A stretch of DNA of 33,458 nucleotides, from positions 1 through 33,458 of the forward strand of contig WLHL01000014.1 in the NCBI GenBank assembly GCA_009702755.1, read 5' to 3'. A model generated the notes under the pieces. That model was not told where the DNA came from and ran no database searches. It saw only the letters and a list, made by a program, of their open reading frames with translations. Each line of letters starts with the position of its first letter. Position 1 is the stretch's first letter. The position numbers and the translations under genes were made by a program. Source of the stretch: Actinomycetota bacterium (lineage in GTDB: Bacteria; Actinomycetota; Acidimicrobiia; Acidimicrobiales; Ilumatobacteraceae). Below are positions 7,693-28,547 of this stretch, piece by piece.

Positions 7693-8721
7693 TCACCTAT
7701 TATCCCACTGCAACACGGTGAAATTGCCCAGTCCGGTTGGGTCAAGCAAAGCTTCGGCTTCGCTGATACGACTACGCATCTTCATCACAGCCAAAGTGGG
7801 CGCCGCTGCGGATTCAGTCCAAACTCGCCGCCCTTCTTCTACCAACTCATCGATTCCCCACAGCTGGAGAAACTGGGACTGACTACGCATGGCGTCAGGT
7901 TCTCGGACTGCAGCAAGCTGATCAATACACACTTGTGTTGTGATGTCCTGCTGGCCCGCATCACGTAAGTAGTGAGTGCCTCGTTCATGACCGGCATACG
8001 TGCGCAACCATTCACGCCATGGCATCGATGCCACTTCTGCAGTCAACGGAGTGCAGTAATCAAATGCGATCAGACTTCCGTTCTTCAAAGACCCGAGTGC
8101 AGTGCGAAGCCATTCAGCGGCGACTGTCTGCACTGGTGCACGAGACCCGTGAGGCACTCGTGCCGGCAAGCAAGATGGCGTTGGAGCATTCTGAAGAACC
8201 TCAGCGAATCCATCACCTTGTTCGATGATGTGCGACTGGCGCCAGCCATCGTCAAAGACCCACAACTCAAAGGGCAGATTGTCAAAGAGTTCATTGGCGA
8301 TGATGACGCCGTTCTCAATTGATGTCGGCATCACATCGGTGCTGGTGATGCCCTCTGGATGAGAGTCGCGCTGTGACGCACCGACTTCCACAGCGATGTA
8401 TTCACCGTTCGCAAGGCACTTTGGTTGTGCAGCGAGGATGGAACGAGCCAATGTTCCTGGGCCTGCACCTACTTCAACAATCTGAAATCCTTCAGGAGAG
8501 CCAAGCTTCGTCCACACAGCATCAATCGCATTGGCCACCACGTTGCCAAACAATGGACCCACTTCGGGAGATGTGAGGAAATCGCCACGACGCCCGGCGC
8601 GACCAGAACCAGAGTAAAAACCACCGTCGCCATACAACGCGAGTTGCATGAACTGAGAGAACGGAAGAGATCCGCCCGCAGCAACTATTGCTGCGCGAAG
8701 AGAACTACTTGCCGAAGGCAC
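7693..8721 (-). CDS. MidA/NDUFAF7-type SAM-dependent methyltransferase, putative complex I assembly factor
   Basis: A 342-residue class I methyltransferase of the COG1565 (MidA/NDUFAF7) family. It has the SAM-binding glycine loop EVGAGPGTL (83-91), the family hallmark NELFDNLPFELW (143-154), the N-terminal LPFSQFMQLALYGDGGFYS block, and GDFLTSPEVGPLFG (46-59). The mitochondrial member NDUFAF7 symmetrically dimethylates an Arg of the complex I subunit NDUFS2 and is needed for assembly. This gene directly follows nuoN of the first cluster and overlaps its end, and the NuoD of that cluster keeps the matching Arg (Arg69), so the same job is a reasonable inference. The start is uncertain: GTG 8721 and GTG 8742 are both possible and neither has a clear ribosome binding site. 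The frame is open to 8793 inside nuoN. Confidence 0.88.
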   Translation of the reverse strand: MPSASSSLRAAIVAAGGSLPFSQFMQLALYGDGGFYSGSGRAGRRGDFLTSPEVGPLFGNVVANAIDAVWTKLGSPEGFQIVEVGAGPGTLARSILAAQPKCLANGEYIAVEVGASQRDSHPEGITSTDVMPTSIENGVIIANELFDNLPFELWVFDDGWRQSHIIEQGDGFAEVLQNAPTPSCLPARVPHGSRAPVQTVAAEWLRTALGSLKNGSLIAFDYCTPLTAEVASMPWREWLRTYAGHERGTHYLRDAGQQDITTQVCIDQLAAVREPDAMRSQSQFLQLWGIDELVEEGRRVWTESAAAPTLAVMKMRSRISEAEALLDPTGLGNFTVLQWDNR

Positions 8722-10210
8722 CGGCGAGACCGGCGATATCACCAAAGTGCAATGGGATGCCTGGGAATGTTCCCAACACCAACGTTGCAACACTGGTAAT
8801 CACAAGAGCAACACTCAACGAGGAGTACACAGTGACCGGTGTTGTGTCACCGTCTGGCACTGGCTTCATCCACATTTCACGAAGGATCTTTCCGTAGTAA
8901 CCAAAGGCCACTGCCGAGTTGATACCACCGATAATTGCCAATGCATATGCCCAAGTTGTTCCTGCCGAAACAAGAGACTGGAATGCAGCGAACTTGCCGA
9001 ACCATCCACCAAATGGTGGGATACCGGCAAGTGATGCCATAAACATTGTCATCAACGTTGCGATGCCAGGTGCATAGGAGAACAAACCGCCATAGGAAGA
9101 AATTTCTCCGCTGCGAGTCTTGCGAGCAACCACCATGACGACTGCGAAGACACCAAGGTTTGTTGCTGCGTAGACCAAGAGATACGTCACAATCGCGCGC
9201 AATGCAGAATTAGCCACTCCGTCAATGCCTGCTACCGCGAGAGGCATAAGGATGAAGCCACCCTGCGCCACCGATGAGTAAGCCAACATGCGAACGATGT
9301 TTGTTTGCTTGAGGGCAAGAACGTTGCCCACTGTCATTGTGAGAGCAGAAAGAATCCAGAACACTGGCTGCCACACATCGTGCGAGCCGGGGAAGCCAAC
9401 GAAGATCACGGTGACGAGAGCAACAAAACCAGCAGCCTTTGAAGCTACTGACAAGAAAGCGGTCACCGGTGTTGGTGCACCTTGGTAGGTATCAGGTGCC
9501 CACGTATGGAATGGAACTGCAGAAACCTTGAATGCGAAACCGACGACGATGAAGAACACAGCGAGTGCACGGACTGATGTGAGATCTGTTCCCAAGTACT
9601 TGGAGATTTCCACCAACTTTGTGGAACCTGAGATGCCGTACAACAACGACATGCCGTAGAGCATGAGAGCTGATGCAAAGACACCGAGCAGGTAGTACTT
9701 GATGCCTGCTTCATTGCTGCGAAGATCTCGCTTGCGCCACGCGGCCATCATGTACGCCGGAATCGACAAGAGTTCCAACGACACGAAGATGGAAACCAAG
9801 TCACGACTTGATGCCATCATCACCATTCCCAAGAGGCTGGTGAGCAACAAGAACCAATATTCACCTTGGTAGTAATCGCCCTCACGCAAGTGATCCGCTG
9901 TGAGAAGAATCACGACATAACCAGACAGAAGGAACAAGCCCTTCATCACGAGGCTGAAGTTGTCCACCATGTAACGGTCATCAAAAAGACTGCGTACGCC
10001 ACCATCGCTCAAAGCGAGGGTGAGAACGGGGATGAATGCACCCAAGACAATGAATGATGCAAGCGGAGTAAGAATCCACTTCTTTGCATCAGCCACAAAC
10101 AAGTCGAGGAGAACGAGCAGCACGATGCCTCCCGCGAGAATCATCTCGGGGGCAAGTGCGTGGTAATCGATTGTCGGCGATGTCCACGCCGGGGCTAGTG
10201 CGCTCAACAC
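8705..10210 (-). CDS. nuoN: NADH-quinone oxidoreductase subunit N, cluster 1
   Basis: A 501-residue antiporter-like membrane subunit, one of three proton-pumping modules in the complex I membrane arm, with about 14 hydrophobic segments. The pump signature Glu is in SIFVSLELLSIPAYMMAAW (near residue 165) and the pump Lys in KVSAVPFHTWAPDTYQGAPTP (near 225). The central helix block reads TNIVRMLAYSSVAQGG, with Val where the paralogue at 22016-23509 has Lys (TNVKRMLAYSSISHAG). The GTG start has GGAGG 7 nt upstream and is 3 bp from the nuoM stop. It is the last nuo gene of cluster 1, with the methyltransferase gene overlapping its 3' end. Confidence 0.95.
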   Translation of the reverse strand: MLSALAPAWTSPTIDYHALAPEMILAGGIVLLVLLDLFVADAKKWILTPLASFIVLGAFIPVLTLALSDGGVRSLFDDRYMVDNFSLVMKGLFLLSGYVVILLTADHLREGDYYQGEYWFLLLTSLLGMVMMASSRDLVSIFVSLELLSIPAYMMAAWRKRDLRSNEAGIKYYLLGVFASALMLYGMSLLYGISGSTKLVEISKYLGTDLTSVRALAVFFIVVGFAFKVSAVPFHTWAPDTYQGAPTPVTAFLSVASKAAGFVALVTVIFVGFPGSHDVWQPVFWILSALTMTVGNVLALKQTNIVRMLAYSSVAQGGFILMPLAVAGIDGVANSALRAIVTYLLVYAATNLGVFAVVMVVARKTRSGEISSYGGLFSYAPGIATLMTMFMASLAGIPPFGGWFGKFAAFQSLVSAGTTWAYALAIIGGINSAVAFGYYGKILREMWMKPVPDGDTTPVTVYSSLSVALVITSVATLVLGTFPGIPLHFGDIAGLAGAFGK

Positions 10211-10213
10211 AGG

Positions 10214-11755
10214 TCAGCCTCCGAATGCTTTGAGGGTCACGCCCACTGCTGGGTCAAGAACCTGGAACATGAGTTGTGGGTACACACCGAACACAACAAT
10301 TGCGATGAGCAATGGTGTCCATGCAATCCACTCAAACTTGTTGACATCGTGGATGTCTTCGTCATGGCCATGGCCAGCTGCGAACTCTTCTGTTGGCTCG
10401 CCAAATGCTGTGCGCTGATAGAGCCACAAGAGGTAACCAGCGGCAAGCACTGTTCCGATTGCGGCGACAACCATGTACACACGGAAGACGGTGACATTGA
10501 GTCCTGGAGCAGGCTGGTACGCCGAGAGGATCGCGGGGAATTCACCCCAGAAACCTGCAAGGCCGGGAAGACCAAGTGACGCCATTGCACAGAAACCAAG
10601 AATCCAACCGAGCTTTGGCATTTGCACCAACATGCCTGAGAGACGCTTGATTTCGAGGGTGTGATAACGCTCTTTCACAGAACCTGCAACGAAGAACAAC
10701 ATGCCGGTGATGAGACCGTGTGCAACCATTCCGAACATTGCAGCGTTCATGCCGAATGAAGTGAGGGTTGAGATACCGAGCATCACGTAGCCCATGTGAG
10801 CAACTGACGAGAACGCAATCAAACGCTTCATGTCGGTTTGTGCAAGACAACCGAGTGCACCGTAAATGATTCCGATAACAGCAAGAAGTCCGATCCACGG
10901 AGCCCACTCTTTTGCGGCTTCAGGAAGGATTGGAATTGCGATACGAACGAAACCGTATGTACCGAGCTTCAACAAGATGGCAGCCAAGATGACTGAGCCT
11001 TGTGTTGGAGCCTGGGTGTGGGCATCGGGCAACCATGTGTGGAATGGGAACATCGGCACCTTGACGGCAAAGCCAACGAACATTCCGGCGAAGATCCAAA
11101 TCTGGGTGTTCTTCGCGATGGCTCCACCATTTTCAATGAGGAACGGAATTGCGAAACTCTCAGCGCCTGTCTTGAAGAACAATGCTAGGAACGCCACCAA
11201 CATGAGGGCGGAGCCAAACATTGTGTAGAGGAAGAACTTGAGCGATGCGTACTGGCGGTTCTCGCCACCCCATACACCGATCATGAAGTACATCGGCAAC
11301 AAGACGAGTTCGAAGAACACGAAGAAAAGAACGAGGTCACGCGCAATGAATGTTCCGGCCATACCTGTCTGGAGAACCAGCATCAAGATGTAGAACGCCT
11401 TTGCATTCCCTGGCGATGGAACATGGTTCCAGCTGTAAATCATCACAAGCAATGTGATGACCATCGAGAGGAAGTACAACGGCAAGCTAATGCCGTCGAG
11501 ACCGATGAAATACGAGGACTTGATGACTGAGATCCACTCAGCCTGTGCCACGAACTGCATCTCTCCGGCTTTGTCGTAGTTGAACTGGACCATCGTGAAC
11601 ACGCCGACTGCCAACGTTGCCGCTGCGGTACCGATGGCTACTGCCTTCGATAACGCCTCGTCTGCCTTCGGTATGAAGAGCATGATGAGGACACCGACAA
11701 GCGGCAAAAATGTGCCGACTGTCAATACCCAATTGTGGTCGCTGAGGACTTCCAT
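10214..11755 (-). CDS. nuoM: NADH-quinone oxidoreductase subunit M, cluster 1
   Basis: A 513-residue antiporter-like membrane subunit with about 14 hydrophobic segments. It keeps the pump Glu in LFFVFFELVLLPMYF, the Lys in KVPMFPFHTWLPDAHTQAPT, the central TDMKRLIAFSSVAHMGY block and the last-module Glu in FWGEFP. The loop before the final helices is His-rich (GHGHDEDIHD near 460), a shorter version of the loop in NuoL of this cluster. The ATG has AGGGAG about 9 nt upstream. It lies 14 bp after nuoL and 3 bp before nuoN. Confidence 0.96.
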   Translation of the reverse strand: MEVLSDHNWVLTVGTFLPLVGVLIMLFIPKADEALSKAVAIGTAAATLAVGVFTMVQFNYDKAGEMQFVAQAEWISVIKSSYFIGLDGISLPLYFLSMVITLLVMIYSWNHVPSPGNAKAFYILMLVLQTGMAGTFIARDLVLFFVFFELVLLPMYFMIGVWGGENRQYASLKFFLYTMFGSALMLVAFLALFFKTGAESFAIPFLIENGGAIAKNTQIWIFAGMFVGFAVKVPMFPFHTWLPDAHTQAPTQGSVILAAILLKLGTYGFVRIAIPILPEAAKEWAPWIGLLAVIGIIYGALGCLAQTDMKRLIAFSSVAHMGYVMLGISTLTSFGMNAAMFGMVAHGLITGMLFFVAGSVKERYHTLEIKRLSGMLVQMPKLGWILGFCAMASLGLPGLAGFWGEFPAILSAYQPAPGLNVTVFRVYMVVAAIGTVLAAGYLLWLYQRTAFGEPTEEFAAGHGHDEDIHDVNKFEWIAWTPLLIAIVVFGVYPQLMFQVLDPAVGVTLKAFGG

Positions 11756-11769
11756 GCTGAGTTGCTCCC

Positions 11770-14208
11770 TTAGAAGTTAATGATGACGAGTACGAGTGCA
11801 CCGATGGCGGCAGCGCCGAACAACAATGCACCGTATTGATTGACTTTTCCTGATTGAACGGGTTGCAACGCACCACCAGCATTTTCAGCTGATGTACCTG
11901 CTCCGTTCACCGCTCCATCGACCAGTTTTTGGTCGACATTGCGATAGACCCAACCGGCAGTTTTCCTGGTGCTGGTACCAGCACCATTCACAATGCCGTC
12001 GAGGACGTTCTGATTGAACCAATAGGCACCACGAGAAATGGGGTGCGCAATGGAACGGACGATGATCTTCTCGTACAAGGTGTCGAGGTAGTACTTGTTT
12101 GCGAGGAATGAATACCCAGCGCCAAGAGCCTTGTTGCGCTCTGTGAGACCAACAAGTTTCTTGTTCTTACGGGTGTACAACTGCACACACAGCAACCAGC
12201 TGAGAATCATGCCCAAGAACACAATGCCCACCGACATGCCGGCCTTCCACCATTTGAAAGGTGCGTGCTTCAGTTGCGGTGCATAACACACGCCACCAAC
12301 AGGAGTTTTTGAACCACAGTCTGAATAGTGATGCCCACCGTCTTTACCGGCTTCAGCTTTGCTGTGGCTACCAGAGTCGGCTGCTTCACTATGACCGTCA
12401 TCAACGGGTTCCTCGGACCCCGCTGCAAGACGAGTTTCACCATGTGCGCCTGCAGGCTTAGCAATGCCTGTCACGCTGACGACTTCTGCACGTGGCTCAA
12501 CCCACTTCTTCAGATTCTCCCACTTCTCACCAAACGCTGGTGCGTTCAGGAAACCTGAGCCAAGAGCAAGTGTTGCCAAGAGAATGAGCGGCACTGTGAT
12601 GATGAGGCCTGATTCGCGTGGACCATGCGACCCATGATCGTCGTGTGAATCATGCGCAGCATGTGAGTCATGTGCGTGCGCATCGTGACCATGTGCATCA
12701 TGACCGTGATCATCGTGTGAAGCGTGAGCGTCATGCTCGTCGTCATGATGTTCACCAGCAGCTGCACCACGTGGCTCACCGAAGAAGGTGAGGTATGTCG
12801 CACGTGTCATGTACGCGGCAGTAAGGAATGCGCCGAACAATCCGACGATCATGAAGAAGTTGTAACCCGCATATCCCACGTTGTCGATGATCTCGTCCTT
12901 TGAGAAGAAACCAGAGAATGGGAAAACGCCGCACAGCGCAAGAGTGGAAATAATCCATGTGCTGAAAGTGATGGGCATGAACTTACGCAGTCCACCCATG
13001 TCCTTCTTCATGTCGAATGAGTGGTGCGATGCACTGTGGCTAATGGAGCCAGCACCGAGGAACAAACATGCCTTAAAGAATGCGTGGGTGAAGATGTGGA
13101 ACACCGCTGGCAACCAAGCGCCAGCGCCGAGACCCATCATCATGTAGCCCAACTGCGACACCGTTGAGTACGCAAGCACCTTCTTGATGTCGTTTTGAAC
13201 GAATGCCAATGCAGCGGCAATGACAATCGTGACGCCACCAATCAGAACGATGAAGTTCACGCTGTTGCCGTAAATGTTCATTCCCTCGTAGAACACTGGG
13301 TACACACGAGCGACCAAGAAAACACCGGCAACCACCATGGTGGATGAGTGCAAGAGCGAGCTAACCGGTGTTGGACCAGCCATTGCATCTGGCAACCAGG
13401 TGTGCAGTGGGAACTGACCCGACTTACCGATGCATGCAATGAACAGAGCGACTGCGCCCACTGTGATTGCTGCACTACTTGGATCTCCCGACAGCGCCCA
13501 TGCGGACAAGCCGCGGATGCTGAAACCAGAAACACCAAGAGTCTTCTGGGTCCAATCGTTTGCAGCGAAGAACAAGACCGACGTACCAACGAGAAGCCCA
13601 ATGTCACCGGTACGAGTGGTGAAGAAAGCCTTTAGTGCAGCGCGACTATTTGCACCCTCTTCCCACCAGTGGCCGATGAGCATGAATGAGCACAAGCCCA
13701 TGAGTTCCCAACCAAGGATGAGCTGAATCATGTTCTCGGCAACGACCATGTTGAGCATGCCCGCAGAGAACAGAGTCAATGACGCAAAGAAGTGCGTGTA
13801 TCGACGATCTCCGTGGAGATACTCAGTGGAGTAGATCTGCACAAGAGAAGAAATAAAAGCGACAACAACAAGGATCGTGATGGAAAGACCGTCGATGTGC
13901 TGGCCGATTCCCAATGAGACACCATCGTTTTGCCACCATGTCCATGACCGAATGATCGGCTTCACATACGTTTCTTCAGAGACGCCATTGACGCGCTGAA
14001 TCCACTGATAGGCGGCGCCAATTGACATCACCAATGCAGCGAACATCGACACAATGCCGAACTCAGAACCCTTCATCGGCATCTTCTTGCCGAAGAAAAT
14101 GATCAAGAAGAATGCAACTGCAGGAATGATCGGAATGATGAACGCGTTTTCGAGGAACCAGCCGGACTTCAAGATGACTTCAGCAGCTTCGGTAGATGCA
14201 GAGAACAT
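11770..14208 (-). CDS. nuoL: NADH-quinone oxidoreductase subunit L, cluster 1, with His-rich insert
   Basis: An 812-residue distal proton-pump subunit, far longer than the usual 610-660 and than its paralogue here (636). The core is complete: Glu in GWELMGLCSFM (near 169), Lys in GKSGQFPLHTWLPDAM (near 262), NDIKKVLAYSTVSQLGYM (339-356) and the Lys in HAFFKACLF (near 379). The extra length is in two loops. Residues 487-528 contain 16 His with many Asp, and residues about 560-650 form a hydrophilic loop with a His pair and two Cys (631, 641). The C-terminal part holds two copies of a DG-VNGAGTS unit in the lateral-helix region and a final membrane anchor. The reading frame is uninterrupted through both inserts. 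It starts 3 bp after nuoK. Confidence 0.96.
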   Translation of the reverse strand: MFSASTEAAEVILKSGWFLENAFIIPIIPAVAFFLIIFFGKKMPMKGSEFGIVSMFAALVMSIGAAYQWIQRVNGVSEETYVKPIIRSWTWWQNDGVSLGIGQHIDGLSITILVVVAFISSLVQIYSTEYLHGDRRYTHFFASLTLFSAGMLNMVVAENMIQLILGWELMGLCSFMLIGHWWEEGANSRAALKAFFTTRTGDIGLLVGTSVLFFAANDWTQKTLGVSGFSIRGLSAWALSGDPSSAAITVGAVALFIACIGKSGQFPLHTWLPDAMAGPTPVSSLLHSSTMVVAGVFLVARVYPVFYEGMNIYGNSVNFIVLIGGVTIVIAAALAFVQNDIKKVLAYSTVSQLGYMMMGLGAGAWLPAVFHIFTHAFFKACLFLGAGSISHSASHHSFDMKKDMGGLRKFMPITFSTWIISTLALCGVFPFSGFFSKDEIIDNVGYAGYNFFMIVGLFGAFLTAAYMTRATYLTFFGEPRGAAAGEHHDDEHDAHASHDDHGHDAHGHDAHAHDSHAAHDSHDDHGSHGPRESGLIITVPLILLATLALGSGFLNAPAFGEKWENLKKWVEPRAEVVSVTGIAKPAGAHGETRLAAGSEEPVDDGHSEAADSGSHSKAEAGKDGGHHYSDCGSKTPVGGVCYAPQLKHAPFKWWKAGMSVGIVFLGMILSWLLCVQLYTRKNKKLVGLTERNKALGAGYSFLANKYYLDTLYEKIIVRSIAHPISRGAYWFNQNVLDGIVNGAGTSTRKTAGWVYRNVDQKLVDGAVNGAGTSAENAGGALQPVQSGKVNQYGALLFGAAAIGALVLVIINF
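12625..12750 (-). repeat. His/Asp-rich repeat tract within nuoL
   Basis: A degenerate tandem array of His-Asp-x units (such as HDAHGHDAHAHD) coding for residues 487-528 of the cluster 1 NuoL. At the DNA level it shows as recurring catg/tcatg words with a period of mainly 6-9 bases. It probably arose by slippage-type expansion. As protein it would lie in a solvent-exposed loop before the last helices and could bind divalent metal such as Zn, Ni or Cu, which is inference. Confidence 0.85.
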
Positions 14209-14211
14209 GAG

Positions 14212-14511
14212 TTAGCCCTTCATCTCTGAGAGATCGTCGAGACCAACGGAACGACGGTTGCGGTACATGAGCAAGACCATTGCAAGACCAACACCGACTT
14301 CGGCTGCAGCCACTGCAATGACGTAAAGAGCAAACGTGTGTCCGTCAGGTGTTCCATTGCGTAAAGAGAACGCAAGAAGGTTGATGTTGACGGAGTTCAG
14401 GATGAGTTCGATGGACATCAGCACGAGAACTGCGTTCTTGCGAACAATGACGCCATAGACACCGATGCAGAAAAGAACTGCACCAAGCATGAGGAACTGA
14501 TTGAGCAACAT
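14212..14511 (-). CDS. nuoK: NADH-quinone oxidoreductase subunit K, cluster 1
   Basis: A 99-residue, three-helix membrane subunit of normal length. It keeps both key membrane Glu residues, in MSIELILNSVNI (Glu near 35) and AAAEVGVGLA (Glu near 71), which form part of the proton path linking NuoH to the antiporter modules. An ideal Shine-Dalgarno sequence, AGGAGGG, lies 7 nt before the ATG inside the end of nuoJ. Confidence 0.96.
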   Translation of the reverse strand: MLLNQFLMLGAVLFCIGVYGVIVRKNAVLVLMSIELILNSVNINLLAFSLRNGTPDGHTFALYVIAVAAAEVGVGLAMVLLMYRNRRSVGLDDLSEMKG

Positions 14512-14513
14512 TG

Positions 14514-15026
14514 TTAGTCCCTCCTCGCGAGCACGATTGCTCCGATAGCTGCAGCGAGCAAGACAAACGACAAGGCCCAGAACGGAAGCAAATAGATTCC
14601 AAAGATCTGGTCAGATACTTGCTGCGTTGAGACGAGCGGAGCATCAGCGGACAATTTTTCAGCCTTGAATCCGTCATTCAATGCAATCAGCATTGTTGCC
14701 AACAAGAGAACGGCGATGGGAAGACCAATAATTCCGTTCTTGTTGTTGAGATCTTTCTCTGCACCAATTTGTGCACGAGTGAGCATGGTTCCGAAAAGGA
14801 ACAAGACCATCACTGCGCCGATGTAGACCATGACCTGTGTGACAGCAAGAAATTCTGCGGCAAGCAAAATGTATTGAGCAGCAGCGCCGGCGAGAACCAC
14901 GACAAGCCACAGTGCTGCATGCACCACGTTCTTTGTCGTGACGACGCGTAACGCACCAATCACCATGATTACTGCGATAATCGCAAAGCCCACGTTCTGG
15001 GCAACAAGCACATCTGAAGCGAGCAT
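14514..15026 (-). CDS. nuoJ: NADH-quinone oxidoreductase subunit J, cluster 1
   Basis: A 170-residue membrane subunit with five hydrophobic segments, usual length for the family. The conserved third-helix block QVMVYIGAVMVLFLFGTML (family YxGAxxVLFLFxxML) is present; in mitochondria and E. coli this helix changes shape during turnover. Its ATG overlaps the nuoI stop (TAATG), so translation is coupled. Confidence 0.95.
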   Translation of the reverse strand: MLASDVLVAQNVGFAIIAVIMVIGALRVVTTKNVVHAALWLVVVLAGAAAQYILLAAEFLAVTQVMVYIGAVMVLFLFGTMLTRAQIGAEKDLNNKNGIIGLPIAVLLLATMLIALNDGFKAEKLSADAPLVSTQQVSDQIFGIYLLPFWALSFVLLAAAIGAIVLARRD

Positions 15027-15523
15027 TATTTTTTGCCCTTCTTCTCTGCGCCTGCTTCAAGTTCTGGAGCTTCAGGCACGGTCTGCATCCACTCGCCGAG
15101 CTTGGCCTTGTCATGCAAGAGATCGGCAATACGTGGTTCGGAGTATTCGTATTCAGGACTCCAGAAGAGCGCATCAAACGGACACACTTCTACGCAGATA
15201 CCGCAGTACATGCACAATGCGTAGTCAATGTCGAAACGATCAAGCTTGTTGACTTTGCGTGGTGCACCACCAGCACGACGAGGTGGTGCAAGCTCCTTGT
15301 GACCCTCGATGTAGATACACCAGTCGGGACATGAGCGAGCGCACAACATGCAAGATGTGCAGTTGTCTTCATGAAGTGCAATGACTCCACGTGCACGAAT
15401 TGGAGGTGTTTCCTTTTCGTGTGGGTACTGAACTGTGTCCGCACCATTTTTTGCAGTCGCCAAGAGAGTGGCGAATGTGACGCCAAGACCCTTGAACATG
15501 CCCGGAACTTTTGGCTTAGCCAT
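15026..15523 (-). CDS. nuoI: NADH-quinone oxidoreductase subunit I, cluster 1 (two [4Fe-4S])
   Basis: A 165-residue ferredoxin-like subunit that carries clusters N6a and N6b. The ligand sets are Cys55-58-61-65 followed by Pro, and Cys104-107-110-114 followed by Pro. The open frame extends upstream to 15592, but ATG 15523 overlaps the nuoH stop (ATGA) and gives a normal start. The N-terminal [17 protein letters not shown] is the amphipathic anchor seen in NuoI. It is distinct in sequence from the paralogue at 27891-28547, notably in its first ligand block ([15 protein letters not shown]). Confidence 0.96.
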
Positions 15524-16587
15524 CAGAAAGCCACCTTCAGAACAGCAGTCAACATGATGTTGACTAGCGAAATTGGAATCAGAACTTTCCATGCGAAACG
15601 CTGCAACTGATCCTCACGCAAACGCGGAGAAGAGAAGCGAATCCACATAATGAAGAAAACAAGGGCCATCATCTTGGCGAACAAAATGAGCGGTCCAGCA
15701 AAATTCATCCAGTTGTCAACACTGTCGATGGTGGTCCAGCCGAACCAAGCGAAAGGCACTCCCCAACCACCAAGGAAGAGAATCGATGCGATCATCGCGA
15801 AGACACCTGCTGTTGCAAACTCACCAATGAAGAAGATCAGGAAACGGAAACCCGAATACTCCGTCATGTATCCAGACACAAGTTCGGATTCCGCAATGGG
15901 CATGTCGAACGGAGTTTGTGAAAGCTCTGCCTGCACAGAAATCATGAAAATGATGAAGGCAACAAACTGCGTCAGAACGTACGGATTGCCAATGCCATCC
16001 CAGCCGAACATTGAACCCGTGTTTTGAGCAACAACAATCTGCTGCAAGTTCATGGTGCCTGCCTGAATGACAACACCAATCACTGCAAGAACCATCGGCA
16101 ACTCGTACGCAACAAGCTGACCTGCAGCGCGCAAACCACCAAGCAACGAGTACTTGTTGGCACTTGCCCAGCCGGCGATGAGGATTCCCAAGACTGATAT
16201 CGACGACACAGCAAGTGCGTAGAAGATTCCAGTCTCAAAATCGGTGAAGAGTGCATCGGGACCAAATGGCACGACAACAACAAGCAAGAAAGTGCTTGCC
16301 AAAACAATCAGCGGTGCCATTTTGAAAATACGTGCTTCAGGCTGAGCATTCGCAGGAACGATGTCTTCCTTCTGCAGCCACTTGCCCACTTCGGCAAACA
16401 ACTGCATCGAGCCATACGGACCAGCTTCCATTGGTCCGAGACGTGACTGCATGAACGACAACATCTTGAAAAGGAACAGGTACACCACGGTGCCCGCAGG
16501 GAGCAACACGGCAACGAGTCCACCAAGGACGCGGAAGATTGACTGCAGCCAATACGGCAAGTCAGAAGCAAAAAGGACAGCGTTCAT
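15523..16587 (-). CDS. nuoH: NADH-quinone oxidoreductase subunit H, cluster 1, altered quinone/E-channel motif
   Basis: A 354-residue, eight-helix subunit that links the quinone cavity to the membrane proton path. The hallmark block normally reads close to NR-PFDLPEAE-EL. Here it reads [18 protein letters not shown], so Ile231 replaces the near-universal first Glu (E. coli NuoH Glu216 by offset from the shared Asp), and Asn-Arg is replaced by Ser-Gln. The neighbouring acids Asp228, Glu233 and Glu235, and TEYSG, are kept. The codon for Ile231 is ATT at 15895-15897. The paralogue in cluster 2 has the normal [11 protein letters not shown]. The start overlaps the nuoD stop (TGATG). Confidence 0.96.
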
Positions 16588-17759
16588 CAGCGATCAATGT
16601 CTCCGAGAATGAAGTACAAAGACGCAAGGATGGTGATGATGTCGGGGACATACACACCTTTGAGAAGCCAAGGAACAATTGAGATGTTGTTGAACGATGC
16701 GCTGCGAATCTTCACACGGAATGGACCTTGGTCGCCTTGAGAGACAACGTAGTAACCCATTTCGCCAAGTGGGTTCTCGGTTGAGACCCATGCTTCGCCT
16801 TCAGGAACCTTGATGATCTTGGGAACCTTGGCCATCACTGGACCAGCAGGAATCGTGTCGAGAAGTTGATCAACAATCTTTGTTGACTCACGCACTTCTT
16901 GCAGACGAACCCAGCAACGTGCGAACGAGTCGCCATCTGGGTGTGTGATGACTTTGAAATCTGTCTTGTTCCAAGCCATCGGGATGTCTTGGTCACGACG
17001 AAGGTCCCAGTCAACTCCACTTGCACGAAGGTTCGCACCCGACAAGCCGTATGACAATGCGACGTCTTTCGGAATCACACCAATGCCACGCGTACGTGAT
17101 TGGAAGATTTCGTTTCCGAACAAAAGGTCTTCAATCTGATCGCAGAAGGTACGCAACTTCTTCATGACGATTCGTGTCTCGTCGATGAAGCCAGCAGGCA
17201 AGTCATCTTTCAATCCACCGATGCGGTCGAAGTTCGGGTGGAAGCGTCCACCGGTTGCACCCTCAATCAGGTTCAACACATATTCACGGTCGCGGAATGC
17301 GAAGAAGACTGGAGTGATTGCGCCCAACTGCACACCGAGGTCACCAAGGAACAATGAAACGTTCGCGATGCGAGACAACTCGAACAAGATGGTGCGAATG
17401 TGCTGCGCGCGCGATGGTGCTTCCACGCCCATCAACTTTTCAGCAGCGAGAATGAAAGGAACTTCGTTAGCGAAAGAACCCAACCAGTCGATGCGGTTCA
17501 CCAATGCAGTGACCTGAGGGAACGTACGGACTTCTGTGAGCTTTTCGTATCCACGGTGCATGTAGCCAGCAGATGGTTCAGCCCACACCACTTGTTCACC
17601 ATCAAGGCGAGCAATGATGCGCAGTGTTCCGTGCGTTGCAGGGTGCTGCGGTCCGATGTTGAGGGTCATGCCCTCTGTTTCAAGTTCAACGTTGACTCGT
17701 GCATCGGCAGCCTGGGATGCGATGTATGCGAGTTGTTGACGGTCGCCAAGCATGGTCAT
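16587..17759 (-). CDS. nuoD: NADH-quinone oxidoreductase subunit D, cluster 1, altered quinone site
   Basis: A 390-residue peripheral subunit (49-kDa/NDUFS2 homologue) that forms the quinone pocket with NuoB. The GPQHPATHG loop is intact with His39 and His43. By gapless alignment with human NDUFS2, residue 92 is Trp where the quinone-contacting Tyr is expected (RIDW against RLDY). Residue 144 is Gln (GVQLGAITP) where the Asp that pairs with the pocket His is expected (ALDLGAMTP). Arg69 in MHRGYEKL corresponds to the NDUFS2 Arg dimethylated by NDUFAF7. No hydrogenase-type terminal Cys pairs are present, so it is not a [NiFe] hydrogenase. It overlaps nuoC by ATGA and is followed directly by nuoH; nuoE, F and G are missing from this position. 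Confidence 0.96.
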
Positions 17760-18439
17760 GATGCTTCGCCTTCCTCTTCGTCGTCGCCGGGCAATGGTTC
17801 AACATCAACGATGCCTGGCCATGGCTTCACGATGCGTGCAAGCAACGGGAAGTCCTTGCGCATCGGATGTCCTTCAAAATCTGTTGGGAGATACATGTTG
17901 CGAAGATCTGGATGGCCGTTAAAGCCGATACCAAACATTTCGTGAGCTTCGCGCTCATGCCAGTTTGCTCCGGCGAAAACGCTGGACCAGGAATCAACTG
18001 CCATTACGTCATCGGCGACATCAACCTTGATGTTGATTCCGATTGTTGTGAAGGGCTGCACCAAACGAGCAATCACTTGGAAGCGAGTATCGCCACCGGT
18101 GTAGCCCTGCTTGATTGTGGAATCTCGCTCGCCTGATGGACCAGATGCATCATCTTCGCTCTTGCCGAACGGTGATGGAAGCCAGTCAATGGCGGAGACA
18201 TAACCGAAGTAGGTGTAACCCAAGGCCTTCAATTTTTCTGCTGTTGCACGCCATGTCTCTGCGGTCACGCGGATCCACATGTCATCGTTTGGCTTCAACA
18301 GCGAATCGACAACGCCAGCACCGAGTGCTTCAAGAATGCGCGCAAGTTCTGCTTCGCGCACTGTGTCGCGAGGTGCCTCAGTTGGGGTATCAGTTGTGGA
18401 CGACAACGGGAACACCACCCTTCTCAGCTGATTCGCCAT
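17756..18439 (-). CDS. nuoC: NADH-quinone oxidoreductase subunit C, cluster 1
   Basis: A 227-residue peripheral-arm subunit (30-kDa homologue) with the family block [20 protein letters not shown] followed by [11 protein letters not shown]. The C-terminal tail is acidic ([10 protein letters not shown]). The listed ATG makes it overlap nuoB by 50 bp, which is unusual. In-frame GTG codons at 18418 (preceded by GAGAAGG) and near 18363 are alternatives, and the conserved part begins only after residue about 28. It is not fused to nuoD, unlike in E. coli. Confidence 0.94.
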
Positions 18440-18947
18440 CGACGATGTTCATTGACTTGGTGCCTTCACCGCGCCAACGTGCGCCCATGTCTTCGTTCTT
18501 GATGCGTTGTTGCAGCAACACGATTCCTTCAAGCAACGCTTCAGGACGTGGTGGGCAACCAGGGACATACACATCAACAGGAATGATTTGATCGACGCCC
18601 TTGGTGACCGAATAGCTGTCCCAATATGGACCGCCGCAGTTTGCGCAGCTTCCCATTGAGATCACGTACTTCGGTTCTGGCATCTGCTCGTACAAGCGCT
18701 TGATAGCTGGTGCCATCTTGTCGGTGACAGTTCCGGAGATAACAACAAGGTCCGCTTGGCGTGGTGATGCAGGAAGAGGAATCACTCCGAGACGCATGAC
18801 GTCATAGCGAGGTGAACCGAATGCAGCACCCATTTCGATGGCGCAGCATGCGAGTCCCCACTGGTACACCCACAATGAATATGAGCGACCCATATTGAAG
18901 AGTGATGTGAGTGGCTTTGGAAGCCGACCGCGATCAACAAGTCCCAT
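18390..18947 (-). CDS. nuoB: NADH-quinone oxidoreductase subunit B, cluster 1 (N2 cluster)
   Basis: A 185-residue peripheral subunit that holds the terminal [4Fe-4S] cluster N2 next to the quinone site. The four ligands are visible: adjacent Cys34-Cys35 (GLACCAIEM), Cys101 (MGSC) and Cys131 (PGCPPRPE). The conserved ASPRQADL block is present, preceded by the less usual GVIPLP. It begins 18 bp after the nuoA stop. Confidence 0.95.
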
Positions 18948-18965: not shown

Positions 18966-19331
18966 CTAGACCCAGCGCAGGACGCCCTTGCGCCATGCGT
19001 AAACAAGACCAAGAAGAAGAATGCCGACGAAGACACCCATTTCTACAAGTCCGAATACGGCATAACGCTCGAGTTGAGTAGCCCACGGGAAGATGAACAC
19101 TGCTTCAACGTCAAAGATGACGAAGAGAAGTGCGAAGACGTAATAACGAATCTGACTTTGCGACCAACCATCACCGACGGGATCCACACCACTTTCGTAG
19201 GTGAGCAACTTTTCTCGGGAGGGCTTATTGGGGCGAATTAGCGCGGAGATACCCAGCAATAATCCGGCGACCAAAAACGCGGCAAGCCCGAACCACACAA
19301 CTGTGAGATAGGACCGTAGAAACTCAGACAC
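18966..19331 (-). CDS. nuoA: NADH-quinone oxidoreductase subunit A, cluster 1
   Basis: A 121-residue, three-helix membrane subunit. The loop after helix 1 has YESGVDPVG, where the usual family form is YECG-P, so the loop Cys is Ser here. FDVEAVFIFPWA, with its conserved Asp-Val-Glu, follows in helix 2. The start codon is GTG with no Shine-Dalgarno sequence at proper distance, and TAGTTT 8 nt upstream suggests a leaderless start. It is the first gene of cluster 1. Confidence 0.94.
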   Translation of the reverse strand: MSEFLRSYLTVVWFGLAAFLVAGLLLGISALIRPNKPSREKLLTYESGVDPVGDGWSQSQIRYYVFALLFVIFDVEAVFIFPWATQLERYAVFGLVEMGVFVGILLLGLVYAWRKGVLRWV

Positions 19332-22015: not shown

Positions 22016-23509
22016 TCAAAGAGGCGCGAAGCGCACAAGTTCGATTGCATCAAGCAAGATGCTGGGGAAGAACCCAATCACGAGCGTGAAGGCTACGGAG
22101 ATCCCGATCACAACACTGACAACTGTTGGAATCTCGAGAGGTTCCTGTGTCTCTGGTTCTTCCATCCACATGCTGACAACAATGCGCAAGTAGAGGAAGG
22201 CGCCAATGACGGCACCCACCATTGCAGCGATACTGATGCCGTAGGAATCGACTTCAACAGCAGCCTTGATGACGCCAAACTTGGCGACAAATCCGGAGGT
22301 GAACGGCACGCCCGCTTGTGCAAACAGCAGTGTGCTGAATGCCAATGCAAGAGCGGGACGACGCTTTGCGAGACCCTTAAACGCATCGAGTGTCGTTGCT
22401 GTGTCGTTCTTGCCTGCCACTGCAATCAAGATTGCAAATGAGCCCATGACCATCATTGTGTAGATCGCCAAATATGTTGCGGAAGCCGCAAGACCATTGC
22501 CTTCCATATGCGCAGCAGCTTCGACTCCAACAAGGATGAAACCAGCGTGGCTAATCGATGAGTACGCAAGCATGCGCTTGACGTTGGTTTGCACCACTGC
22601 CATCGTCGAACCAACAAAGATGCTGAGAACGGCAAGAACCCAGATCACTGGACGCCAATCATCAACACGTGACTCGAGTCCGACAATAAAGATTCGCAGT
22701 AACGCTGCAAAAGCAGCAACCTTGGCAGCAGATGCCATATATGACGTCACTGACGTGGGTGCACCTTCGTACACATCAGGGGTCCAGATCTGGAAGGGGG
22801 CTGCAGAGACTTTGAAGCCAAGGCCCACCAGCATGAGGCCGATTCCCACCAGCAACATTGCATCCGAACCACCCACAGCAATTCGTTCTGTCAATGCTTC
22901 AGCAATGCCATTGATGTTCGTCGAAGCAGTTGCGCCATAGACAAGGGCAACGCCGTACAACAGGAATGCTGATGCAAAGCCACCAAGAATGAAGTACTTG
23001 AGACCCGACTCTTGGCTTTCCTCGCGGCGGCGATCGCTTGCAGCCATCAGATACAACGAGAGGCTCAGAATTTCCAAGCCAAGGAACAAAACAATCAGGT
23101 CATTTGCTGAGCCCATCACGACTGCGCCAATTGCAGAAGTCAGGAGCAACGCATAGTTCTCCAATGGATCGCCATTTGCATCATCATGATGCGCTGATGC
23201 GAGAAGTGCACCGAGAGCAACCGCAACCGTGATGATGATGGTGATCAGTACAGAGAAACGATCGATCGAAATCGCATCAGCAACAATGGAGTACCCCTTG
23301 CGGTAGTACAGATTGTTCCATTGCACGCACGCAGCGGTTCCGGCGGCAAGCGCGGTGACAATTGTGAGAGTAGGTGTCGCTACTCGAGGCCAGCGGGGAA
23401 CAAGTGTTCCCAACAAAAGAAGAAGACAAGTACCACCCAGGAGAATGAGAAGTGGGGTTAACGCACCCCATGCGATCTCAGGAGCCGTCATTGTTGCTGC
23501 GAGAACCAT
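22016..23509 (-). CDS. nuoN: NADH-quinone oxidoreductase subunit N, cluster 2
   Basis: A 497-residue antiporter-like membrane subunit with about 14 hydrophobic segments. The pump Glu is in LFLGLEILSLSLYLMAA, the Lys in KVSAAPFQIWTPDVYEGAPT, and the central block TNVKRMLAYSSISHAG is canonical (Lys kept, unlike cluster 1). The ATG overlaps the nuoM stop (TAATG). It is the last gene of cluster 2, meeting the facing peptidase gene end to end. Confidence 0.95.
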   Translation of the reverse strand: MVLAATMTAPEIAWGALTPLLILLGGTCLLLLLGTLVPRWPRVATPTLTIVTALAAGTAACVQWNNLYYRKGYSIVADAISIDRFSVLITIIITVAVALGALLASAHHDDANGDPLENYALLLTSAIGAVVMGSANDLIVLFLGLEILSLSLYLMAASDRRREESQESGLKYFILGGFASAFLLYGVALVYGATASTNINGIAEALTERIAVGGSDAMLLVGIGLMLVGLGFKVSAAPFQIWTPDVYEGAPTSVTSYMASAAKVAAFAALLRIFIVGLESRVDDWRPVIWVLAVLSIFVGSTMAVVQTNVKRMLAYSSISHAGFILVGVEAAAHMEGNGLAASATYLAIYTMMVMGSFAILIAVAGKNDTATTLDAFKGLAKRRPALALAFSTLLFAQAGVPFTSGFVAKFGVIKAAVEVDSYGISIAAMVGAVIGAFLYLRIVVSMWMEEPETQEPLEIPTVVSVVIGISVAFTLVIGFFPSILLDAIELVRFAPL

Positions 23510-25110
23510 TACTCGCCTCCCTCATGTGCAGTATCGGTTGCAGGCGAATGTCCGCCCTTATGCACCGGGGCCTTGTAGTCAGAGTGCAATTCCACATGCT
23601 TGACCAGCTTGTCGACACTGGGTTCAATGCGATTCAACATTGGCTTGGGGAAGAGACCTGTGAACACGATGAGTCCGATGAACACCATCAACAACGAGCC
23701 CTCACGAAGTGTGAGTTCCTTGAACGTTGAATTGGCTTCATCTGGCTCGCCATGGAAGACACGTTGGTATGCCCACAACAGATACAGAGCAGCCAAGATG
23801 ACACCCGTTGCGGCGATGATTGTCCACCACCGCGCAGTTTCAAATGAACCGATGAGGATGAGGAATTCGCCAACGAATCCATTGAGTCCAGGGACTCCGA
23901 CGGATGACAGCATCACGACCATAAATGCGGCAGCAAAGATGGGAGCAACCGACTGAATGCCCTTGAGTTCCGCGATGACTCGCGTATGGCGACGTTCGTA
24001 AATCATTCCGACCAAGAGGAACAACGCACCGGTGGAGACACCGTGGTTAATCATCTGCATCACACTTCCGGTGAGTGACTGCGACGTGATGGCGAACGTA
24101 CCCAGAACAATGAAGCCCAAGTGAGCAACCGATGAATACGCAACTAGACGCTTGAGGTCCGTCTGCATAGTTGCTGCAATCGCACCATAGATAATGCCGA
24201 TAGTCGCAAGCGTGAGAATGACCGGCTTTGCCCAGACGGCAGCTGCGGGGAACAAATAGAGCCCAAAGCGGAGGAACCCGTATGTTCCCATTTTCAACAG
24301 CACGCCAGCAAGGATGATGGAACCACCTGTTGGAGCCTGAGTGTGTGCATCCGGCAACCAGGTGTGTAGCGGGAAGATTGGAACCTTCACCGCGAAAGCA
24401 ATGGCGAATGACAGGAACAACCATCGAGCTGTGTTGGTTCCAAAAGTTGCTTCTTCTGCAATCTTCACAAGATCAAAGGTGATGTATCCGAGGTCTCGCT
24501 GGGCCAGCACTGCAGTTGCAATGATGCCGACCAGCATGAATGCGGAGCCAAACATTGTGTACAGGAAGAACTTCGTCGCTGCATAGATGCGCTTGTCGTA
24601 GCCCCATCCACCAATGAGGAAGTACATCGGAACAAGAACAATCTCGAAGAAGATGAAGAACAGGAACAAGTCAAGACTGAGGAAACTTCCCATCACTCCA
24701 GCTTCAAGAAGCAGTATCCATCCGAGGTAGCGCTTTTCATCGTGGTGCGGATCCACACCAACAATGACGAGTGGGAAAAGGATGCCGGTCAGAACGACGA
24801 GGAAGAGGGAAATACCGTCAACACCGAGGTGCCACGAGATACCCCATGCACGAATCCATTCGTGTTGAGAAACGAACTGAAACCCAGCCTCATGTGAGTC
24901 AAATTTGGCCAACATCCACAATGACATTGCGCCAGTACCTGCACTGACGATGAGCGCAGTGAACTTCACATACTCAGGCCGACGATTGGACAACAACGTC
25001 ACGAGGACGGCACCCAGAAGTGGAACAAGAATCAATGCGGAAAGGATCGGGAATGCAACAGCAGTTTTCTCCGTTGCTGCTCCAGCACTTTGTATAAGCG
25101 TTGACAACAT
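23509..25110 (-). CDS. nuoM: NADH-quinone oxidoreductase subunit M, cluster 2
   Basis: A 533-residue antiporter-like membrane subunit. It keeps the pump Glu in LFFIFFEIVLVPMYF, the Lys in KVPIFPLHTWLPDAHTQAPT, TDLKRLVAYSSVAHLGF in the centre and the Glu of FVGEFL. The frame is open to 25137, but ATG 25110 overlaps the nuoL stop (TGATG), in keeping with the rest of the operon. Its C-terminal tail is hydrophilic with several His (HKGGHSPATDTAHEGGE). Confidence 0.95.
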   Translation of the reverse strand: MLSTLIQSAGAATEKTAVAFPILSALILVPLLGAVLVTLLSNRRPEYVKFTALIVSAGTGAMSLWMLAKFDSHEAGFQFVSQHEWIRAWGISWHLGVDGISLFLVVLTGILFPLVIVGVDPHHDEKRYLGWILLLEAGVMGSFLSLDLFLFFIFFEIVLVPMYFLIGGWGYDKRIYAATKFFLYTMFGSAFMLVGIIATAVLAQRDLGYITFDLVKIAEEATFGTNTARWLFLSFAIAFAVKVPIFPLHTWLPDAHTQAPTGGSIILAGVLLKMGTYGFLRFGLYLFPAAAVWAKPVILTLATIGIIYGAIAATMQTDLKRLVAYSSVAHLGFIVLGTFAITSQSLTGSVMQMINHGVSTGALFLLVGMIYERRHTRVIAELKGIQSVAPIFAAAFMVVMLSSVGVPGLNGFVGEFLILIGSFETARWWTIIAATGVILAALYLLWAYQRVFHGEPDEANSTFKELTLREGSLLMVFIGLIVFTGLFPKPMLNRIEPSVDKLVKHVELHSDYKAPVHKGGHSPATDTAHEGGE

Positions 25111-27020: not shown

Positions 27021-27028
27021 GATGATTG

Positions 27029-27355
27029 TTATCCCTTCAAAGCCGAAAGATCATCGGCAGTGATGCCGTTACGACGACGCATGATTGCAACGATGATGCC
27101 TAAGCCCACGACGACTTCTGCTGCGGCAACAACCATGACAAAAACAACCACGACTTGACCATTGATATTGGAAAGTGCTGTCGCCAATGTGACGAAGGTG
27201 AGGTTGACGGCATTCAACATCAGTTCAATGCACATAAACATCACGAGTGGATTGCGACGGACCATGACGCCAAAGGCGCCAATGCCGAACAAAACAGCAG
27301 CGAGGATGAGATACCAACTGCTCGTGGGTTGGATAACCGACAACATGGTGCTCAC
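27029..27355 (-). CDS. nuoK: NADH-quinone oxidoreductase subunit K, cluster 2
   Basis: A 108-residue, three-helix membrane subunit with both membrane Glu residues, in [12 protein letters not shown] and [10 protein letters not shown]. The GTG start at 27355 overlaps the nuoJ stop (GTGA), which supports it over the internal ATG codons at 27346 and later. Confidence 0.95.
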
Positions 27356-27891
27356 TTCCCTGCCCCACCAGACTTCACTCGCCTGGCCATCAAAACCGTG
27401 CCAATAACGGCAACAAGCAACAACACTGACGTGAGTTCGAAGGCAAACACATTGTTGCCGAAGATTTCACGGGCTACTTGACGAATGTTCGCGTCAGGAC
27501 TTCCCAACGTTGTCTCGTCAAGACCACCAACCTTGCGACCAAGAAGATCTCGTGATGTAACGACAGCTGCGATCACAATGCCTATGACTCCGGCACTAAC
27601 GATCAGAGCCAACGGACGTTGCACTGTGATTGGCTCGATATTGACATCTTCAGTTCGGTCGACGCCTAACAGCATGATGACGAAGAGAAACAGAACGACG
27701 ATTGCGCCGGCATAGACAATGACCTGAACGGCAGCAAGAAATTGTGCATCGTGGGACACGAACATCACAGCGATACCAAACAATGTGAGCACGAGACTCA
27801 GAGCTGCATGCACAGGGTTAGACCGAGTGATGACACCAAGTGCTCCACCCAAAACCATGGCAGCGGCAACGACGAATACGAACAGTTCCAT
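27352..27891 (-). CDS. nuoJ: NADH-quinone oxidoreductase subunit J, cluster 2
   Basis: A 179-residue membrane subunit with five hydrophobic segments. The third-helix block [21 protein letters not shown] is close to the family consensus. The start overlaps the nuoI stop (TAATG), and the stop overlaps the nuoK GTG. Confidence 0.95.
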
Positions 27892-28547
27892 TAGTGACTG
27901 CCTCCGTCGGACTGATCACGGACTTCCTGAACTGGTTCTGGCTTGCGTACGCCGTATCCCAACTCACCGCTCCAGGAGACAACGCCTTCGAAGGTTGCGT
28001 CACCTGCAGGTGCTGTTGCACGCATCCAACCTGACGTGTTCTGGTCTTCACCTGGACGCCAGTCTTCCCACGGCAGATGCTGCGGCATGCCATCATCGCC
28101 AACAAGCAATTCATCCTTGGTGTAAATCGCATCACGACGATTCAGGAAAGAAAACTCAAACAACTTTGTTTCTGTGATTGCTTCTGTCGGGCATGCTTCC
28201 ACGCACATGTCGCAGTGGATGCAACGCAAGTAATTGATCTCGTAGATGAAACCGAAACGCTCACCAGGTGATGTTGGATTGTCCGGATCATTATCTGCTC
28301 CGCGCACATAGATGCATTTCGCAGGACACACACCAGCACATAGCTCACAGCCAATGCACTTTTCCATGCCGTCTTCATAACGATTGAGAACATGACGACC
28401 ATGCAAGCGCTCTGGCTTGTCAATCTTTTCGTCCTTGGTATCGCGATTCTTTTTACGGAAAACACGACCGCCTGAGTACTCAGTTGTCACCTTATTCTTT
28501 GCGCCGTGTTGGCGCATGGTGACGAGGAATCCGCCGAAGTAACCCAT
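27891..28547 (-). CDS. nuoI: NADH-quinone oxidoreductase subunit I, cluster 2 (two [4Fe-4S])
   Basis: A 218-residue ferredoxin-like subunit that carries clusters N6a and N6b, with ligand sets Cys64-67-70-74 and Cys109-112-115-119, each followed by Pro. It has a C-terminal extension of about 80 residues beyond the second cluster ([16 protein letters not shown] onward), as in other actinobacterial NuoI. The start overlaps the nuoH stop (TAATG). Confidence 0.96.

Follow-up and report, generated by a model that had tools for sequence, protein, structure and literature searches.

A 33,458-nucleotide stretch of contig WLHL01000014.1 (assembly GCA_009702755.1, genome size 1.84 Mb), hereafter called the window, carries two sets of genes for respiratory complex I, and the NuoD protein of one of them, hereafter called NuoD2, has tryptophan in place of a tyrosine that is regarded as essential in the quinone pocket. 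Judged from homology, nuoD2 encodes the NuoD of a second, 11-subunit complex I that is kept by many Actinomycetota beside the canonical 14-subunit enzyme. The best reading of the sequence comparisons, which we hold to be somewhat better than an even bet, is that the second complex is a functional paralogue that pumps protons and whose quinone pocket has been rebuilt. The fuller account is put forward tentatively, at a little under even confidence: a second complex I, widespread in Actinomycetota, would carry out quinone chemistry without the "essential" tyrosine and without ND1 Glu202, as the outcome of two concerted bursts of change in NuoB, NuoD and NuoH, and in one Acidimicrobiia lineage it would also have undergone a one-turn jump of the His-pairing carboxylate and be tuned by an arginine methylase of its own. 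The nearest named relatives of the source genome are metagenome-assembled genomes (MAGs) labelled Ilumatobacteraceae, Acidimicrobiaceae or plain Actinomycetota.

A first-pass annotation made from the sequence alone had reported that NuoD2 retains the pocket histidine as His43 and has Trp92 and Gln144 where quinone-reducing enzymes have tyrosine and aspartate. These three residues and their numbering were confirmed. The gene and the codons of interest are as follows.

16587 to 17759, minus strand: nuoD2, 390 amino acids, matching PF00346 and scored on NCBIfam models; quinone-site and N2-facing subunit.
17631 to 17633, minus strand: codon of His43 (bovine His59), retained; placed by alignments.
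17553 to 17555, minus strand: codon of Arg69 (bovine Arg85, Yarrowia Arg121), retained in NuoD2 and Thr in the canonical paralogue; placed by alignment.
17484 to 17486, minus strand: codon of Trp92 (bovine Tyr108); placed by alignments.
17340 to 17342, minus strand: codon of Asp140 (bovine Thr156, Yarrowia Ser192), the putative relocated carboxylate; Asp or Glu in 148/148 sequences with His, Trp and Gln at the three pocket positions (H-W-Q).
17328 to 17330, minus strand: codon of Gln144 (bovine Asp160); placed by alignments.

From the GPQHPATHG loop to beyond residue 144, NuoD2 aligned with phmmer without a gap to five solved chains, 2fug_4 (Thermus Nqo4), 6hum_H, 7eu3_H, 8ba0_D and 8b9z_D, in all of which Tyr stood opposite Trp92 and Asp opposite Gln144. 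The one single-residue insert, in 6hum_H, lay only downstream, near residue 173. These five were the alignments inspected among 54 matching chains; human NDUFS2 was among the matches and outside the five. The resulting offset of 16 to the bovine numbering (His59, Tyr108, Asp160) agrees with the residue names used in PMC7567858 and PMC9120487. A shifted register was ruled out by the gapless alignments, and chance or sequencing error was rejected because 144 of the 148 H-W-Q sequences came from loci other than the four copies of the gene itself. Set against a canonical quinone-reducing NuoD, NuoD2 thus has the pocket His, and lacks both the Tyr (Trp92) and an acid at the Asp160 position (Gln144); in its canonical counterpart from this genome the three positions are His, Tyr and Asp. 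The earlier statement that two canonical residues are lost stands insofar as the Tyr is gone and residue 144 is Gln, and requires amendment insofar as an acid is gained at position 140 where 144 loses it. In a separate region, corresponding to residues 305-323 of NuoD2, Arg69-type NuoD (both Trp- and Tyr-type) has 19-21 residues and Thr69-type canonical NuoD has 44 or 60.

The distribution of the substitution was assessed in 286 NuoD sequences drawn from 200 loci and from short loci found in further searches. The 200 loci comprised 80 nearest-relative loci and 120 hand-picked from the listed matches and are not a random sample; the sequence set is redundant, with NuoD2 of the window counted four times, and probably repeats some entries as the two main locus searches may overlap in genomes. 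The sequences are also related, so that counts do not equal independent events. Residue 92 was Trp in 225 sequences and Tyr in 58; the remaining three were odd rows kept outside the counts (a divergent copy in locus L209, and a canonical gene in L280 that is broken into two overlapping frames). Residue 144 was Gln in 148 and Glu in 77 of the Trp sequences; among the Tyr sequences it was Asp in 27, Glu in 27 and Asn in four. Trp was found in 92 of the hand-picked 120 loci, representing 92 genomes, and was absent from the other 28. A quick tree was calculated from 155 representatives and the window sequence (156 rows, those more than 93% alike having been removed); several of its forks are left open, and some branches are long. 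All 100 Trp rows fell together on one branch (support 100), inside which the 45 Gln rows made up a branch of their own (support 100). Because each is a single branch, the replacement of Tyr by Trp requires one change in this sample, and Gln requires one change within it. Trp92 marks one NuoD clade in Actinomycetota, whose members lie in nuo clusters lacking nuoE, nuoF and nuoG (EFG-less clusters) or have moved out of them.

In all 17 genomes where both copies could be read, the canonical NuoD had Tyr (ten with loci L234-L243, plus G000, G044, G053, G015, G045, G046 and G058). Nonomuraea gerenzanensis, for example, has one NuoD with Tyr, Thr69 and Glu and another with Trp, Arg69 and Glu. The anticipated clade of EFG-less NuoD sharing the substitutions, with a canonical paralogue free of them, was therefore found both in the tree and in the two-copy genomes. 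An eighteenth two-copy genome (G038, locus L280) has its canonical nuoD in two pieces in different frames, owing to a frameshift or an assembly error. An extra, distant NuoD-like gene (29% identical) was also noted in two genomes of the order that have no NuoD2 match (G055:C17:48829-49920 and G050:C16:50848-51633).

The aspartate at the Asp160 position had been described as near-universal, which did not hold within the phylum: Glu is a common residue at position 144 of actinobacterial NuoD, occurring in 27 of the 58 Tyr-type sequences and in the solved 8e9g chain. Position 140 was acidic in 45/45 Gln rows of the tree (29 Asp, 16 Glu), and the 148 H-W-Q sequences divided into 132 with Asp and 16 with Glu. 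Counted from the tree row labels with the three odd rows set aside, an acid at 140 was present in 49/49 rows without an acid at 144 versus 0/104 rows with one. A low-confidence AlphaFold model of NuoD2, built from 16 close sequences, placed the two positions, four apart, in one helix; its mean predicted local distance difference test (pLDDT) score was 44 and it was not used for distances. In the bovine numbering, Thr156 and Asp160 are described as lying beside the inhibitor head group, and a His59-Asp160 interaction is also described (PMC7567858). The row-by-row exchange indicates that the carboxylate moved from 144 to 140 in two lineages of the sample. Gln144 is thus real and confined to one nested lineage, and its interpretation as a loss from the pocket is offset by the acid at 140 in its place. 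Four loci of family f81 (L208, L210, L211 and L217) were observed to encode NuoD with Asn144 and Asp140; their clusters hold F- and G-like genes and gave no NuoI match.

Changes in the subunits that adjoin NuoD accompany those in NuoD2. All four cysteines that bind cluster N2 are kept in NuoB2. The arginine beside N2 is supplied by NuoD2 (Arg69) in the second complex and by NuoB in the canonical one, so that both forms occur in one cell; an Arg/Thr switch between Yarrowia and Thermus has been described (PMC8042128). NuoB had Thr (Thr73 in NuoB2) in 186/186 pairings with Trp-type NuoD (Arg69) and in 26/27 beside Tyr-type Arg69 NuoD, and NuoB beside Thr69 NuoD had Arg in 25/27, with gaps in two. 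Another NuoB arginine, present in 19/20 canonical sequences, is Pro or Ala in the second complex (36/36 Gln-type, 43/43 Glu-type). NuoH2 has losses of its own: ND1 R25, the arginine of the ERK motif, was absent from 77/77 Trp-type sequences, and E202 was absent from 76 of them, with a gap in the remaining one. Both residues were kept in 17/17 canonical NuoH and in the single Paenibacillus NuoH compared, and other Tyr-type NuoH kept R25 in 24/27 and E202 in 23/27. The Gln lineage had in addition lost E24 (34/34) and replaced R195 by Gln (34/34); Glu-type NuoH2 kept E24 in 37/43 and R195 in 38/43. The ND1 residue numbers (R25, E24, R195, E202) are those that we take to correspond, transferred by alignment. 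The exact ERK column depends on gap placement, and both alignments gave non-basic, mostly hydrophobic residues in NuoH2 of the window. Glu202 has been discussed as a possible "control point" for proton transfer (PMC9120487). NuoI2 kept its eight N6a/N6b cysteines and diverged strongly at other positions, and divergence outside the cysteines is expected if NuoG no longer docks. At most of the charged columns of NuoL, NuoM, NuoN and NuoK, both second-complex sets (Gln-type and Glu-type) had the same commonest residue as the canonical set. The ligands of N2 and of N6a/N6b and the main pump charges of NuoL, NuoM, NuoN and NuoK, all of them looked for as marks of an EFG-less complex I-like enzyme, are therefore present.

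The second nuo set runs from 19331 to 8705 on the minus strand in the order A2 B2 C2 D2 H2 I2 J2 K2 L2 M2 N2. It clusters nuoA-D and nuoH-N without nuoE, nuoF or nuoG, which is the gene content of an 11-subunit (EFG-less) complex I-like enzyme. On NCBIfam models, NuoD2 scored 392 for NF004739 (cut-off 360), 398.5 for TIGR01962 (459.35) and 409 for NF008974 (522). Tested as a component of F420H2 dehydrogenase (Fpo), it scored 330 on the FpoD model NF040602, below the cut-off of 600. The other genes of the two sets in the window, all on the minus strand, are listed here.

18966 to 19331, minus strand: nuoA2, PF00507.
18390 to 18947, minus strand: nuoB2; N2 ligands Cys34, 35, 101 and 131 kept, Thr73, and Pro59 replacing Arg.
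17756 to 18439, minus strand: nuoC2, PF00329 and NCBIfam.
15523 to 16587, minus strand: nuoH2; E and R of the ERK motif, R195 and E202 (ND1 numbering) replaced.
15026 to 15592, minus strand: nuoI2; all eight N6a/N6b Cys kept, otherwise strongly divergent.
14514 to 15026, minus strand: nuoJ2, NCBIfam.
14212 to 14511, minus strand: nuoK2; Glu35 and Glu71 kept.
11770 to 14208, minus strand: nuoL2, 812 amino acids.
10214 to 11755, minus strand: nuoM2, NCBIfam and alignment.
8705 to 10210, minus strand: nuoN2, NCBIfam and alignment.
7693 to 8793, minus strand: midA-like open reading frame (ORF), PF02636; its GTG start overlaps the end of nuoN2.
22016 to 33440, minus strand: canonical nuoF-N, by profile and sequence matches.

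Contig C51 of the same genome holds the canonical nuoA-E and, at its end, the start of the nuoF seen in the window; taken together, the two contigs seem to carry all 14 canonical subunits. The two nuo sets are separated by genes for a threonine ammonia-lyase and for amidotransferase-like proteins. NuoL2 (812 amino acids) is longer than NuoL1 (636 amino acids), the added length being in the C-terminal part.

In 14 of the 120 hand-picked loci nuoD2 stood without its sister genes. Thirteen of these (L179, L187, L189, L192, L194-L197 and L200-L204) were lone nuoD2 loci, and the fourteenth (L175) had only F- and G-like frames, on the opposite strand. Eleven of the 14 genomes were tested: a B2-type nuoB was found in 11/11 (the match in G371 holds one stop) and a second nuoH in 10/11, the exception being G302. 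In 7 of the 11 loci around B2, H2 came immediately after C2. The presence of B2, with C2 adjoining H2, indicates that nuoD2 moved out of its cluster and was not lost, and the idea of a lone NuoD2 acting without a complex was rejected on the nuoB and nuoH counts. The genome G302 looks complete and has B2, D2 and I2-like genes (L293), with only a weak H2 trace and no usual second nuoH match. In L195, nine frames in the neighbourhood of nuoD2 gave no match to Pfam.

The midA-like ORF scored 94.1 bits on PF02636 (threshold 23.3) and matched the NDUFAF7/MidA structures 4f3n, 1zkd and 5ztz. Among loci L114-L173, 29 Gln-type loci had nuoN2 and more than 1.2 kb downstream of it, and in 28 of them a PF02636 frame overlapped nuoN2 or started at most 0.9 kb away; L118 had none so placed. 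The Glu-type loci of the class (L148-L172, n=23) had such a frame near nuoN2 in eight cases, at 2.0-2.5 kb in three and nowhere in the stretch in 12, and the phylum-level loci (L174-L205, n=17) had it in none. Whole genomes hand-picked from the same lists, 26 with D2 and 23 without, were also tested. PF02636 was present in 18/18 tested D2-bearing genomes of the class and in 0/23 tested D2-less genomes of the order, the latter including one without any NuoD match (G039) and one that is 88% complete (G056). NDUFAF7 dimethylates Arg85 of NDUFS2 (PMC3829151), the equivalent of Arg69. By analogy, the MidA-like methylase encoded beside nuoN2 probably methylates Arg69 of NuoD2 in the Gln lineage.

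Absence of the NADH module was considered as an explanation of Trp92 and did not account for it. The EFG-less cluster of Paenibacillus cellulosilyticus has Tyr, Asp and intact R25 and E202, and Tyr is also kept by several actinobacterial clusters whose retrieved stretch contains none of E, F and G (e.g. L219 and L225), which rules out that EFG loss causes Trp. The comparison copies from E. coli, Shinella and Rhizobium have Tyr and Asp. Ten haloarchaeal plasmid NuoCD-like genes were seen, of which five have Trp at the Tyr site with Asp kept (L319, on Haloarcula halophila plasmid NZ_CP119560.1 at 466164-467804, and L320, L321, L322 and L323) and the other five have Tyr; this Tyr to Trp replacement is apparently an independent change. 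No other annotated nuo gene adjoins L319 or L321-L323. Two further nuoCD copies on haloarchaeal plasmids (L324 and L325) have a single other nuo gene within 3 kb, which is nuoI in Haladaptatus caseinilyticus and nuoB in Halomicrococcus. As to the electron donor, an EFG-less second nuo cluster is already known from Ca. Actinomarinales, and its authors proposed F420 (PMC7771536). Input from F420 through an FrhB-type subunit (PF04432) was rejected here for want of correlation with the cluster: the family was present in 16/24 tested D2-bearing and in 16/18 tested D2-less genomes, so that the suggestion of PMC7771536 is not favoured as a general rule. The source genome itself has two PF04432 matches, both outside the window contig.

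A two-step history would fit these observations. At the base of the clade, NuoD would have exchanged Tyr for Trp, NuoB its Arg for Pro or Ala, and NuoH would have lost ND1 R25 and E202. Later, in a single lineage of Acidimicrobiia to which this genome belongs, the His-pairing carboxylate would have moved from 144 to 140, ND1 R195 become Gln and E24 been lost. In the enzyme, a low-potential donor other than NADH through a module of its own would feed NuoI, from which electrons would reach N2. N2 would then reduce the quinone of the cell, probably menaquinone, in a shifted pose. Because Trp cannot give a proton as Tyr does, protonation would depend on His43 together with an acid at 140 or 144. 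The conserved residues suggest coupled proton pumping, and the changes in NuoB and NuoH may make Trp workable with a long-chain quinone. The first-pass annotation had proposed another quinone, another binding mode or a different acceptor chemistry. A different binding mode is the natural reading, since NuoB2 and NuoH2 changed together with NuoD2; a non-quinone acceptor gains no direct support, the N2 ligands, His43 and the Arg beside N2 all being kept.

Several points weigh against a pumping, quinone-reducing enzyme of this kind. Yarrowia variants of the corresponding Tyr144 gave no reduction of Q9, with near-normal Vmax and raised KM for Q1 and Q2 (PMC7567858), and their failure with Q9 argues that Trp alone should impair an enzyme that uses a long-chain quinone. 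Quinone use by the second complex is deduced from homology. Some charges of the membrane arm have also changed: the NuoN Lys (N1 K311) is Val or Ile in 69/70 second-complex sequences, the NuoM Arg (R383) is Tyr or Phe in 69/70, and the NuoA Arg (R55) is Gln in 79/79. Relocation of the acid was seen in no more than two lineages: the Gln clade, and f81 with its four Asn rows. PF02636 was found in two of the eight tested D2-bearing genomes outside the class and was absent from the other six, which indicates that MidA is not part of the core system.

Other explanations were weighed against the rebuilt-pocket enzyme. The complex might run mainly in reverse: driven by the proton-motive force, electrons would pass from menaquinol to ferredoxin, F420 or a comparable low-potential acceptor, and the altered pocket would favour quinol oxidation. 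A separate complex without an NADH module that coexists with a canonical forward enzyme would suit such a role, and losing both the Tyr proton donor and ND1 E202, the possible "control point" of PMC9120487, would alter proton handling in both directions. No sequence feature indicates direction, however, and the FrhB homologues do not track the cluster in the genome counts given above; we regard reversal as unlikely. It is distinctly unlikely that the acceptor is a modified menaquinone or another lipid-soluble carrier in place of an ordinary quinone. The changes that NuoB, NuoD and NuoH have undergone in concert near the head group, together with the normal pocket of the canonical enzyme in the same cell, would suit a special acceptor, but a shared membrane pool would normally serve both enzymes, the second complex retains His43 as well as N2 and the Arg next to it, and none of the scanned neighbouring ORFs of the window resembles a gene for carrier synthesis.

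Protection from natural complex I poisons such as streptomycete piericidin, with the paralogue as an inhibitor-resistant spare, would fit PMC7567858, in which Tyr108 bonds piericidin and Trp at this site is noted in the piericidin producer Streptomyces mobaraensis. Trp is, however, clade-wide and extends to freshwater Acidimicrobiia MAGs and Nonomuraea, the two-copy genomes keep a Tyr-type enzyme as well, and the S. mobaraensis Trp may simply belong to its second-complex copy, which makes this explanation very improbable. Decay of the cluster with drifting pocket residues is hardly credible and was already disfavoured: residues called strictly or highly conserved in the literature have indeed changed, but their replacements are constant over a deep clade (Trp92 in 225/225), and the cysteines persist together with the main pump charges.

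In models of complex I coupling, central roles fall to the NDUFS2 Tyr, its His-Asp pair and ND1 Glu202. A clade in which the Tyr and Glu202 have given way to other residues and the carboxylate has in part shifted, yet in which the His and the main charges of the pumps persist, is a natural experiment on which protons matter; if the fuller account given at the outset is true, the second complex I would serve as a natural test of the coupling between quinone protonation and pumping. The results also suggest that the published link between Trp and piericidin in a Streptomyces needs rechecking for paralogy and that inhibitor work in actinobacteria may mix two enzymes. The substitution at Tyr108 is real but not new, Trp at this site having been remarked for S. 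mobaraensis (PMC7567858). Beyond one sentence in the available parts of that paper, the literature search found no discussion of the actinobacterial NuoD2 pocket, and SCO3392 and SCO4599 were not found in the parts of PMC8981147 available. Nor did the literature searched yield any mention of Trp as a clade-wide trait, of concerted changes, of the shifted carboxylate or of a link to a methylase.

Among known systems, the Ca. Actinomarinales cluster (PMC7771536) is a paralogue of the same kind, located near a canonical nuo cluster in Actinomycetota; the available parts of that paper do not treat the quinone-site residues, and FrhB-like genes do not follow the cluster here. The EFG-less enzyme of PMC11238625 has the same gene set without NuoEFG, whereas the only Bacillota example compared, that of Paenibacillus, keeps Tyr, Asp and R25/E202. 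The NDUFAF7/MidA system (PMC3829151, PMC8042128) is matched by the PF02636 gene adjoining nuoN2 and by the target Arg in NuoD2; it differs in that the canonical NuoD of this cell has Thr at the target position and methylation is here a prediction. S. mobaraensis (PMC7567858) has the same substitution at the same site as NuoD2, presented there as a trait of a piericidin producer, whereas here Trp defines a paralogue clade that in other actinobacteria stands beside a Tyr-type NuoD. The canonical actinobacterial complex I, represented by NuoD of 8e9g, shares the family and the pocket His with NuoD2 and differs in having Tyr at 92, Glu at 144 and Thr at 69, and canonical Thr69-type NuoD is further set apart by a longer loop near residue 310 and by the NADH module of its enzyme.

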